This document shows, one piece after another, positions 55,799-59,098 of a stretch of 64,000 bases of DNA. Both the position numbers and the translations under genes were made by a program. The notes below the pieces were generated by a model. The model ran no database searches and had not been told where the DNA came from. It saw only the letters and a list, made by a program, of their open reading frames with translations. The stretch is from Alphaproteobacteria bacterium (GTDB lineage: Bacteria > Pseudomonadota > Alphaproteobacteria > Sphingomonadales > Kordiimonadaceae), in the NCBI GenBank assembly GCA_021774735.1, contig JAJFIS010000019.1:62001-126000 (forward strand), read 5' to 3'. Numbering within the stretch: the stretch's first letter is position 1; each line of letters begins with the position of its first letter.

Positions 55799-56365
55799 TT
55801 ACTCAGCGTCCAAGCTTTCAACGATTACATTGCCGTTGGTATAAACGCAGATATCCGCCGCCACCGCCATCGCTCGTCGGGCTATTTCTTCGGCAGTCAG
55901 GTCTTGATCTTCCAGTGCGCGCGCCGCCGCTAGGGCATAATTACCGCCGGATCCTATACCAACAACACCGTGTTCGGGCTCCAGCACATCGCCGTTACCG
56001 GTGATCACAAGGGTGACTGACTTGTCCGCGACAATCATCATGGCCTGCAATTGGCGCAAATATTTATCCATCCGCCAATCTTTGGCCAGCTCAACGCAGG
56101 CACGGGTCAACTGGCCGGGGTGGCGCTCTAACTTGGCCTCCAGGCGCTCAAACAGCGTGAAGGCATCCGCCGTTGCACCTGCAAAACCGGCTATAACACT
56201 GCCGCCGCCAAGGTGACGTACTTTGCGGGCATTGGCTTTCATCACTGTGTCACCAACGCTTACTTGACCATCACCGGCCACAACAACACTGTCGCCCTTG
56301 CGCACCCCAATGATGGTGGTACCGTGCCATTCCGGCCCCAGACCGTTTCTCTCGCGTGCGCTCAT
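55799..56365 (-). CDS. hslV: HslV peptidase subunit of the HslUV protease
   Basis: A 188-residue threonine peptidase. The sequence [19 protein letters not shown] corresponds to the active-site N-terminus. Thr16 is expected to become the first residue after removal of a 15-residue leader, longer than in E. coli but usual for alphaproteobacteria. AAGGA seven bases before the ATG at 56365 supports this start over that at 56392. Upstream, the expected neighbour hisB is displaced by a two-gene insertion. Confidence 0.95.
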
Positions 56366-56470
56366 AATGTTTTCCTTGGCATTTTGTGGCACAGCCTTAA
56401 ACTACTAGTGTTTCATATAGGCTTACTAACATTATTAGCAAGTGCTCCCGTGAGTTATTTAACATTGTCA

Positions 56471-56585
56471 AGACCAAAGGTCTCTTGAAAAGGTAAATTT
56501 ATCTTGACACGGTAATTTATCTTGATTTTTACCTCTCTAGGATTCATACTGCACTAAGTTAGATTCACCATTGGTTGAATCAACC
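56471..56585 (+). promoter_or_regulatory. Repeat-rich promoter region of the ImmA/cyclase cassette
   Basis: Several elements are packed here. A dyad AGACC-AAA-GGTCT spans 56471-56483. A near-exact tandem repeat GGTAA(A)TTTATCTTGA lies at 56492-56507 and 56511-56525. A candidate promoter has TTGATT at 56522-56527 and CATACT 17 bases later. A palindrome GGTTGA-A-TCAACC spans 56573-56585 and overlaps an inverted GATTCA/TGAATC. This suggests control by one or more dimeric regulators. Confidence 0.5.
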
Positions 56586-56619
56586 CATGCTAATGGTTTA
56601 GAAACAGGGGGTGACTTTG

Positions 56620-57177
56620 GTGTTTGATGCAGTGCAGTTGACCGAGTCTGGATTTAGTAAGTCCGCCATTCATACAATTGCGTCTGACCTCTCCGGTCTT
56701 TTTGGTGTATCTAACCGTAATGATCTCAGGGATGTAGTCCTTCAACTGGATGGCAATGTAAAGTCGATAAATCTCTGGGAATCAGACGAGGATAGACTGG
56801 GGTCTATTGTTATTTCAGCTGAAGATGAGTTTACGATATTTGTTCCAGACGATGAATCTGAAACGCGCAAGAGATTCACGATAGCACATGAATTAGGTCA
56901 TTATTTCTTACACTATATCGCTAAGGAGGACATAAACCCTGACCTTACCTATCAGGCAGATAGATATGTCGATAGCCAAGAAATGTCTGGAAGAGTTGAG
57001 TGGGAGGCCAATTGGTTTGCCGCAGCTTTACTTATGCCCATTGAAAGATTTCGCACTTTTGCTAATGACTTGGCGGATTTGACCGAAGAAAGAAAGATTA
57101 GGGCCCTAGCAAAAGAATTTCATGTGTCCTACACTGCTGCGAAGCTTCATGCTAATTATCTAGAAATATCTCTGTAG
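56620..57177 (+). CDS. ImmA/IrrE family zinc metalloprotease
   Basis: A 185-residue protein of the ImmA/IrrE family (COG2856). The zinc motif FTIAHELGHYFLHY is central (HELGH about residues 90-94), and the third ligand lies in EWEANWFAAALLMP about 35 residues later. Family members cleave DNA-binding repressors (IrrE on DdrO, ImmA on ImmR). There is no helix-turn-helix domain here and no repressor gene beside it. The GTG at 56620 is preferred because AGGGGGTGA lies five bases upstream; an earlier GTG at 56611 overlaps that site. The cyclase gene follows after 18 bases. Confidence 0.88.
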   Translation: MFDAVQLTESGFSKSAIHTIASDLSGLFGVSNRNDLRDVVLQLDGNVKSINLWESDEDRLGSIVISAEDEFTIFVPDDESETRKRFTIAHELGHYFLHYIAKEDINPDLTYQADRYVDSQEMSGRVEWEANWFAAALLMPIERFRTFANDLADLTEERKIRALAKEFHVSYTAAKLHANYLEISL

Positions 57178-57195
57178 AAAAGGTAATATAGCATT

Positions 57196-58401
57196 GTGAC
57201 AGAGGCCAATTTCATCAAACCTCGCGTTCGGCTTTTTCTCAGTGTCGATATAGTCGGGTCAACAGCATATAAGCAGAAAAATACTGAACAACAGTTCGAT
57301 GGAAAAATTCAGAAATGGCTTTTTCCTATCGCTACATTTTATCATAAATTCGAAGAGAATTTTTTTGCCCATTGGGACAACCTAAAAGAAAAAGCCGACA
57401 ACCCTAACTCGGGAGTTTCGATTTGTTTTGGACCAGAGCCTACACTCTGGAAAATGTTGGGCGATGAACTAATCTATACAAAGATAATTACCAACCCTAT
57501 TCAGATAGAGTACTTATTTCAGGCTTGGCGGCAAACACTACGAGAATATAGAAAAATAATCCGATTCTCAAATGAAGACGGGGACGAAAAAGATAATGGC
57601 CTAGATTTGAAATCTTGTGCATGGATTGCAGGGTTTCCATATGAAAATGCTGAAGTGGCATTAGCTAAGCGCCCCCAGAAAACTACTCAAGATGATACAG
57701 ATTTTGGCACCCAGTATACAAAGAAAAACTTCAGCCTCCTGAAAGAATATTATAGTAACTCACTAAAAACACCCCCGCAATCAAGTGACGTAGTTCTTGA
57801 TTTTTTGGGGCCCTCAATGGATACGGGGTTTAGGCTCGGCAAGTTTTGCTCGCCCCTAAAAACGGTAATATCAGTGGATCTAGCTTACACTTTGTTAGTG
57901 TTGGAGAAAGGAAAAAAATCAGCAAAACCTGTGCTTGGAGATAAACATATTTCAGCGAGTGTACATTATATGGGACGCAAAATTCTTAAGGGTGTAGCGA
58001 CTAATGAGCCCTATCCAATTTTTTGGTTAAACGAATATAATGAATCTTATACTACTCCGATTGATAAAATTAATAACTGGTTTCGAGACCTTGAAGATCA
58101 AGGTAAAAATCCACCGGGTTTGAACGATATTAAATTTTATCTTGAAACTACCCTCGGTACACCAAATGTCCCTTACTTTTGTAATGAAAATCTAGAACAC
58201 GATCCTGATTTCGCACAGATTCCTCCTCATCATAAGGAAAAGATTGGCCATTACAGAGATACCTACAAAAAATTGGATCTACAAAACGAGGTCATTATAC
58301 AAAATCTAGAGGACCAAAATAAAAGTGGTTCTGAGCTCAACCAACAACAAACTGACAAAATTCTTGCCAAAGCTCCGGCCCCTTCTTCTAAAGGTGCATA
58401 G
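57196..58401 (+). CDS. Class III nucleotide cyclase, Pycsar-like
   Basis: A 401-residue soluble protein. Residues 12-25 (RLFLSVDIVGSTAY) carry the first metal aspartate, Asp18. Residues 85-94 (WKMLGDELIY) carry Lys86 and the second metal aspartate, Asp90. Residues 202-216 (DFLGPSMDTGFRLGK) align with the transition-state motif, where Arg213 is kept but the usual Asn is Asp209. The overall pattern, and the DTGFRL segment in particular, recall the pyrimidine cyclases of Pycsar systems. The C-terminal 130 residues have no recognised domain or membrane helix. It starts with GTG, 18 bases after the protease gene. The nucleotide used is unknown. Confidence 0.72.
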   Translation: MTEANFIKPRVRLFLSVDIVGSTAYKQKNTEQQFDGKIQKWLFPIATFYHKFEENFFAHWDNLKEKADNPNSGVSICFGPEPTLWKMLGDELIYTKIITNPIQIEYLFQAWRQTLREYRKIIRFSNEDGDEKDNGLDLKSCAWIAGFPYENAEVALAKRPQKTTQDDTDFGTQYTKKNFSLLKEYYSNSLKTPPQSSDVVLDFLGPSMDTGFRLGKFCSPLKTVISVDLAYTLLVLEKGKKSAKPVLGDKHISASVHYMGRKILKGVATNEPYPIFWLNEYNESYTTPIDKINNWFRDLEDQGKNPPGLNDIKFYLETTLGTPNVPYFCNENLEHDPDFAQIPPHHKEKIGHYRDTYKKLDLQNEVIIQNLEDQNKSGSELNQQQTDKILAKAPAPSSKGA

Positions 58402-58450
58402 AATATCAAGTTTTCCCCTTGCTCCCTATTTGTAATTCCCTATGATGGCG

Positions 58451-58483
58451 CACGAAAGATTCGATGTTCTTTCGTGTATTTTT
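58451..58483 (+). terminator. Rho-independent terminator of the cassette
   Basis: A perfect nine-base stem (CACGAAAGA 58451-58459, TCTTTCGTG 58468-58476) with an eight-base loop is followed by TATTTTT. It closes the cyclase transcript and separates it from hisB. Confidence 0.8.
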
Positions 58484-58510: not shown

Positions 58511-59098
58511 ATGCGCTGCGCTGAAGTTAAGAGAACCACCAAAGAGACCGATATTACCGTCAAGCTAACGCTGGACGGCAGTAGTACTTATGATATTAAA
58601 ACCGGCATTGGCTTTCTCGATCATATGCTTGAGCAGCTGACCAAGCATAGCGGTATGGATTTGGCGGTTACGGTAAAGGGTGATTTGCATATTGATGGTC
58701 ACCATACGGTGGAAGATTGCGGCATTGCTATCGGCAGTGCTTTTAAGCAGGCGCTGGGCGATAAAGCGGGCATAACGCGCTATGCACATGCTTACCTGCC
58801 GATGGACGAGACTTTGAGCCGCGCAGTACTGGATATTTCCGGTCGGCCCTTTCTGGTTTGGAACGTGCGTTTCAGCCGCGACAAGCTGGGTGATATGGAC
58901 ACCGAACTTTTTCAAGAATGGTTCCGCGCCTTCGCTTTCGCCGCTGGCCTGACGCTGCATATGGAAAATATTTACGGCGAAAATAACCACCATATCGCCG
59001 AATCGCTTTATAAAGCCTTGGCGCTTGCCATTCGAAGCGCTGTGACCATCGACCCTGCCCGCGCAGGTGAAATACCATCGACCAAAGGCACCCTGTAA
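58511..59098 (+). CDS. hisB: Imidazoleglycerol-phosphate dehydratase
   Basis: A 195-residue monofunctional HisB. The metal-binding repeats [26 protein letters not shown] and [15 protein letters not shown] are visible. It catalyses the dehydration of imidazole glycerol phosphate in histidine synthesis. It is the first gene of hisB-hisH-hisA-hisF-hisE here. Its ribosome site is weak. Confidence 0.97.

Follow-up and report, generated by a model that had tools for sequence, protein, structure and literature searches.

The two genes that lie between hslV and hisB in this alphaproteobacterial genome raise the question of what kind of system they encode, and whether it is, as the initial annotation suggested, a phage defence in which a cyclic nucleotide made by one protein switches on the other.

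An AT-rich cassette interrupts the hslV–hisB junction

In the window, by which we mean the whole 64,000-nucleotide stretch of DNA analysed here, hslV (55799–56365, minus strand) and hisB (58511–59098, plus strand) are the left and right flanks of an insertion consisting of an ImmA/IrrE protease gene (56611–57177, plus strand) and, 18 nt further on, a class III cyclase gene (57196–58401, plus strand). Both open reading frames, as well as the hslU/hslV and hisBHAFE flanks, are located where they had been placed originally, and the earlier impression that the cassette is more AT-rich than its surroundings was confirmed by the GC contents of the protease and cyclase genes (0.42 and 0.39, compared to about 0.50–0.57 for hslU/hslV/hisBHAF) and by their GC3 values (0.39 and 0.34, compared to 0.52–0.59), which are among the lowest of all genes in the window.

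The cassette had been described as a self-contained unit with its own promoter and a strong terminator, and the first part of this description holds while the second lacks statistical support. A stem of 10 bp followed by a T-run is found at the end of the cassette (58450–58477, plus strand), but terminator-like matches are no more frequent in the region than in shuffled sequences (three compared to 2.6), and sigma-70 promoter-like matches are fewer than chance would give (two compared to 6.2), with no support above chance for a promoter in the upstream hslV/immA intergenic sequence (56366–56610, plus strand); a promoter and terminator belonging to the cassette are therefore plausible but not statistically supported. 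The same intergenic sequence holds a 12-nt direct (tandem) repeat, AATTTATCTTGA, at 56496–56507 and 56514–56525 (spacing 18), which is possibly a regulator site. No convincing target-site repeats were found at the insertion, and the cassette has no repressor open reading frame, leaving the cyclase as the partner of the protease.

The downstream gene encodes a divergent class III-fold cyclase

The 401-aa product of the downstream gene, which has a ribosome-binding site of the AAAGG type, had no credible match in sequence searches of Pfam, NCBIfam, PADLOC and the PDB, and the original identification of a class III cyclase with both metal aspartates had therefore relied on motifs alone (a pyrophosphatase match to one of 11 family members, E 0.0044, was taken as chance). 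This identification is now borne out by structure prediction, as the AlphaFold model (pTM 0.76) has a class III fold for which the top Foldseek match was CyaC (1wc0, E 2.5e-8), and of 111 PDB matches with E ≤ 0.001 the best 50 were all class III cyclases. Profile-profile alignment of the family with ordinary class III cyclases using hhalign (E 3.1e-5) also placed the motifs in register. In PHROGs the protein belongs to phrog_18024/6174, annotated as 'unknown function'.

The register of metal aspartates, base-recognition pair and transition-state residues is well established for class III cyclases, and on it the cassette protein has D18 and D90 as the metal ligands, K86/D202 as the base pair, R213 as the transition-state arginine and K265 as the phosphate lysine. 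D18, D90 and R213 are present in 55/55 representatives of the family, K86 in 54, K265 in 51 and D202 in 51, the others having Glu at this last position. In all 55, Asp209 takes the place of the transition-state Asn of ordinary cyclases (by alignment and the hhalign register), and as the fold and the other residues agree with class III and this one does not, we refer to a divergent class III-fold family for which catalysis is predicted. Judging by these residues, the cyclase is probably active with ATP as substrate.

The protein thus resembles class III adenylyl cyclases (CyaC, CyaB and mammalian AC C2) in fold, metal-Asp register, Lys/Asp pair, catalytic Arg and phosphate Lys, but differs from them in falling below detection by Pfam PF00211, in the Asn to Asp change, in the family-specific W41, W85 and GFR, and in having an obligate-looking protease neighbour. 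Grouping with ordinary adenylate cyclases had been named beforehand as an argument against the defence proposal, and we find that the protein does group with them in fold and base-recognition residues but forms a separate sequence family. The C-terminus is a long helix and tail which is poorly conserved. We note that cyclases from Clostridioides phages and from contigs like them (L010:4830-6416, L028:5908-7353 and L032:1270-2645) carry an extra C-terminal stretch resembling a degenerate NUDIX domain (phrog_1198, E 0.0074), which is apparently frameshifted in L032.

The upstream gene encodes a single-domain ImmA/IrrE protease

The upstream protein is 188 aa long as called from GTG 56611, and 185 aa long from GTG 56620, which is likely to be the real start as its potential ribosome-binding site, AGGGGG, fits better. 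It was matched by Peptidase_M78 in Pfam (E 1.9e-20) and has the HEXXH motif as HELGH (codons 56887–56901) with Glu130 as the third ligand, in agreement with the earlier description of a COG2856-type zinc protease lacking a repressor partner. The AlphaFold model (pLDDT 90.5) consists of one catalytic domain, in which neither the model nor Foldseek indicated an HTH, GAF or CNBD, and is closest to CapP (7t5t), IrrE (3dti) and ssDNA-bound PprI (8sln). Amongst the partner proteases examined, HExxH is found in 45/46, Glu or Asp at the third ligand in 45/46, and Arg in 40/46 at the position of R86, seven residues ahead of HEXXH. The catalytic apparatus of both enzymes looks intact on the basis of residue conservation.

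CapP was both the best PADLOC model (capP, E 1.7e-28) and the best PDB fold match, with IrrE also amongst the PDB relatives, which links the protein to CapP/CapH, PprI(IrrE)/DdrO and ImmA/ImmR. In those systems, however, the partner is a DNA-binding repressor rather than a cyclase, such as the CapH-type HTH repressor found beside the protease in CBASS operons, and the GAF-like domain is missing here. The RmrA models of PADLOC also matched the protease domain (E 1e-14), over RmrA positions ~173–291 of ~380 only.

Protease and cyclase form a widespread, co-diverging pair

When cyclase relatives were clustered at 70% identity, the protease gene was located directly upstream and on the same strand in 48 of the 63 clusters, with gaps of almost always -149 to +23 nt, so that the COG2856 gene looked for beside the same cyclase in unrelated genomes is indeed found there, including on plasmids and in phages. 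The other 15 clusters comprise five fragments or contig ends, two with upstream ImmA-like proteins lacking HExxH, one with Panacea, one broken prophage copy and six without a partner; a third HExxH-less partner, in L170, is counted within the 48. With the protease profile, neither 190 kb of control DNA taken from these genomes nor the neighbourhoods of 17 ordinary class III or PycC cyclases gave any match. Protease and cyclase have diverged together (r 0.68, 0/5000 permutations), and pairing spans the whole of the cyclase tree with the exception of one nested clade without the protease. No third conserved gene was seen beside the pair in the neighbourhoods inspected.

The cyclase could instead be an ordinary adenylyl cyclase used in signalling, with a protease gene next to it by chance; this would fit the class III fold and Lys/Asp pair, and could account for the protease-less clade. 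However, this reading is disfavoured by the pairing across phyla and co-divergence, as well as by the sporadic and mobile distribution described below, and we consider it extremely improbable.

The protease-less clade (L007, L136, L142 and L174) consists of alphaproteobacterial cyclases of 265–300 aa. The HExxH-less ImmA-like proteins are encoded upstream of divergent cyclases (L148:6524-7195, L149:10117-10842 and L170, the first two identified by eye), and from their sequences they read as pseudo-proteases kept in the operon.

The pair is mobile and absent from this site in relatives

The cyclase clusters come from the Proteobacteria, Spirochaetes and Actinobacteria and from phages of Firmicutes, and relatives were found on Leptospira plasmids, in phage LE1 and phages of C. 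difficile, on a Mycolicibacterium plasmid and a Tistrella megaplasmid, and in the genomes of many proteobacterial families. Occurrence is patchy, at 15/385 genomes for the class and 23/398 for the phylum, and amongst 60 relatives searched the only homologue was in a member of another family (G051), at an unrelated site. The initial annotation had proposed a comparison of the hslV–hisB junction in related genomes, and had held that a pair fixed at this locus in all relatives and without association elsewhere would count against it. In the 29 relatives for which hisB was in hand, the two genes are adjacent in 24, unrelated genes lie between them in five, and none carries the cassette. The pair has thus been horizontally acquired or moved, being absent from this site in relatives, and it is almost certainly a functional mobile unit. 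The unrelated cargo in five relatives (L112–L116) indicates that the junction takes in foreign DNA repeatedly.

Chromosomal copies elsewhere are lone islets among housekeeping genes, located between argD and argF, upstream of clpX–lon, beside rpoD, upstream of uvrB and beside rlmN (gene names assigned by eye). In the first of these (L195:5963-12736) the pair lies within an arginine operon with all genes on the same strand. Prophage copies sit among repressors and integrases, and the LE1 copy adjoins CI. This placement, together with the precedent of the ImmA family in ICEBs1 (PMC2701414), would suit a pair that controls the state of a prophage or plasmid (induction or superinfection immunity) instead of serving defence, with chromosomal copies as remnants. 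We think this very unlikely, given the many lone chromosomal copies, that of the window included, with no phage gene in the vicinity and with the active sites of both proteins preserved. We also note that a single 70-kb Leptospira element (IMGVR_UViG_2724679514_000002) holds the pair in two copies that differ from each other (L030 and L056).

The cassette is not a Pycsar system

The cyclase had been thought to resemble Pycsar cyclases, and it was proposed that on sensing phage it would produce a cyclic nucleotide and thereby turn on the protease, which would be a Pycsar-type effector of a new kind. The two-gene layout of cyclase and partner, the mobility and the intact active sites suit this model, and the first two of these, with a class III-fold cyclase, are also what the cassette has in common with Pycsar (PycC with PycTM or PycTIR). 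However, none of the 11 PycC models held by PADLOC matched any of 11 cyclase family members at E ≤ 1, and as several ordinary class III cyclases match these models (1e-7 to 1e-34), the lack of a match is informative. Pyrimidine recognition in PycC proteins involves residues such as F60/K104/F109 (clade D) and F100/R142/Q144 (clade E), and at these positions the cassette cyclase has S16, K86 and L88, its Lys/Asp base-recognition residues being of the adenylyl-cyclase type. By comparison, the K(-4)/D(-7) pair is missing from L179, a true PycC, at whose locus the upstream partner looks by eye like a CNBD-type effector.

Membership of Pycsar was rejected on the basis of the missing PycC match, the base residues and the fact that no cyclic-nucleotide-binding domain is recognisable in either protein. 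The anatomy of the single-domain protease, with no CNBD, GAF or HTH, lends no support to its being an effector turned on by a cyclic nucleotide, and partners without HExxH exist. Activation of the protease by a cyclic nucleotide is the version least supported by the anatomy of the pair, and one we regard as quite unlikely.

A sister branch paired with Panacea points to a possible toxin-antitoxin module

Two loci (L206:971-2418 in G536:C268, and L207:1267-2876 in G507:C66) form a sister branch in which the cyclases, which share 37% identity and come from different families, are each directly followed, within about 20 nt, by a SocA_Panacea gene (E 1.7e-16 and 8.5e-16). The branch shares W, K..GD, D-x3-R and KG with the cyclase family and aligns with it by hhalign at E 3.5e-7, better than ordinary cyclases do; no members were found in viral contigs or plasmids. 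Panacea is a promiscuous antitoxin domain able to neutralise many toxins, and the role of ImmA as an antitoxin hub has been confirmed for systems of the RosmerTA type (PMC10440598). Of the new evidence we give most weight to this sister branch, as a toxin would be expected to show just such a pattern, in which a single cyclase family has two unrelated antitoxin domains as partners. The general traits of type II toxin-antitoxin (TA) systems are also seen here in the small mobile two-gene operon, the patchy distribution and the exchange of partner for an antitoxin domain in the sister branch.

For these reasons we favour a mobile TA or abortive-infection module whose toxin is the cyclase and whose controller is the ImmA/IrrE protein, encoded first, a reading with a little less than an even chance of being correct, and for which we count the pairing, co-divergence, catalytic conservation, mobility and Panacea exchange. 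A TA or phage-abort switch in which a cyclase is the harmful enzyme would be previously undescribed, and the sequence pattern fits one. A fuller definition, in which the toxin of this class is a class III cyclase with an Asn to Asp site and possibly an unusual product, controlled by ImmA/IrrE and in the sister branch by Panacea, is offered tentatively.

ImmA/IrrE proteins usually act on the product of an adjacent gene, and following this logic the ImmA-like protein would bind or cleave the cyclase and so hold it in check. The cyclase might then be freed when phage infects, when the genome is damaged or when the element is lost, and would form a cyclic nucleotide from an NTP (ATP, judging by its Lys/Asp residues); either disturbance of Crp-type regulation or drainage of the NTP could arrest cell and phage. 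An upstream ImmA-like protein that lacks HExxH is retained beside three distant cyclases, in keeping with a role in binding, while the retention of HExxH in 45/46 close partners suggests that proteolysis matters and that sequestration by itself would not be a full explanation. Against this TA reading, one clade of the cyclase persists in the absence of the protease, as would not be expected of a constitutive toxin unless it had been tamed, the Panacea branch consists of two loci only with remote homology to the ImmA branch, and neighbourhoods show little defence-gene enrichment.

The conservation of HExxH also gives rise to a rival in which the protease is a sensor and activator, responding to a damage or phage cue such as single-stranded DNA by cleaving the cyclase or its C-terminal tail and so turning on cyclic-nucleotide synthesis, with host Crp-type proteins or a changed NTP pool doing the rest. 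Proteases of the ImmA/IrrE type free operons in CapP/CapH and PprI/DdrO, and PprI requires Arg85, seven residues ahead of HEXXH, for activation by ssDNA (PMC10904395). R86 is similarly positioned, CapP, IrrE and ssDNA-bound PprI are the nearest solved structures, the cyclase tail could be a cleavage target, and a search of the host's own genome found four cNMP_binding genes and no PF00211 cyclase. However, the protease has no GAF-like domain, which in PprI is required for activation by ssDNA (PMC10904395), the three distant partners lack HExxH, and no repressor-like cleavage site is identifiable, and we judge this rival to be rather unlikely. Were it correct, a DNA-damage-type ImmA switch would be linked to nucleotide second messengers. 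If instead the cyclase is a toxin, cyclic-nucleotide synthesis would join the killing mechanisms of TA and abortive-infection systems, and under the TA reading a classical signalling enzyme would have been turned into a mobile intracellular toxin.

Defence context and relationship to described systems

Five PADLOC models were found amongst 128 neighbours of chromosomal copies compared to none amongst 126 controls, and since at least one of the five (DnaG-like) falls on the housekeeping dnaG we do not count this as enrichment; the association with other defence genes that had been expected is therefore weak. The copy on the Mycolicibacterium plasmid pMYCCH.02 (L005:1-12969) has as its neighbours another ImmA/IrrE gene, an operon for an MPN/JAB protein, TcmP and a TA pair of RES/Xre type, and a gene annotated as AbiF-like lies near the phiC2 copy. 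These TA, TcmP and MPN neighbours, the AbiF-like gene and the placement in lysogeny modules are the few hints for defence, and whether the pair serves phage defence is in our opinion about evenly balanced.

RosmerTA (RmrA/RmrT) is similar in its mobile two-gene layout, in the ImmA/IrrE-domain partner of a variable second gene and in the RmrA match over the protease domain. However, its RmrA antitoxin is an HTH–ImmA protein and the protease here has no HTH, and the literature examined does not include a class III cyclase, the second gene here, among the toxins of RosmerTA. In the literature searched, no paper identifies the partner as a cyclase or treats the pair as a system, an absence which is not proof of novelty.

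The same gene pair is represented by orf1/orf2 of phage LE1 and p41/p42 of phage phiC2 (phrog_18024 / phrog_6174), and a survey in 2009 listed both phages among COG2856–Xre operons (PMC2701414). In contrast to that survey and to the 'unknown function' of PHROGs, we identify the partner as a class III cyclase, which gives a fold and likely chemistry to the phage and plasmid family phrog_18024 and shows that, in at least four phyla, it travels together with a protease of the ImmA/IrrE type. The phiC2 record itself notes the likeness of its two genes to LE1 orf1/orf2.
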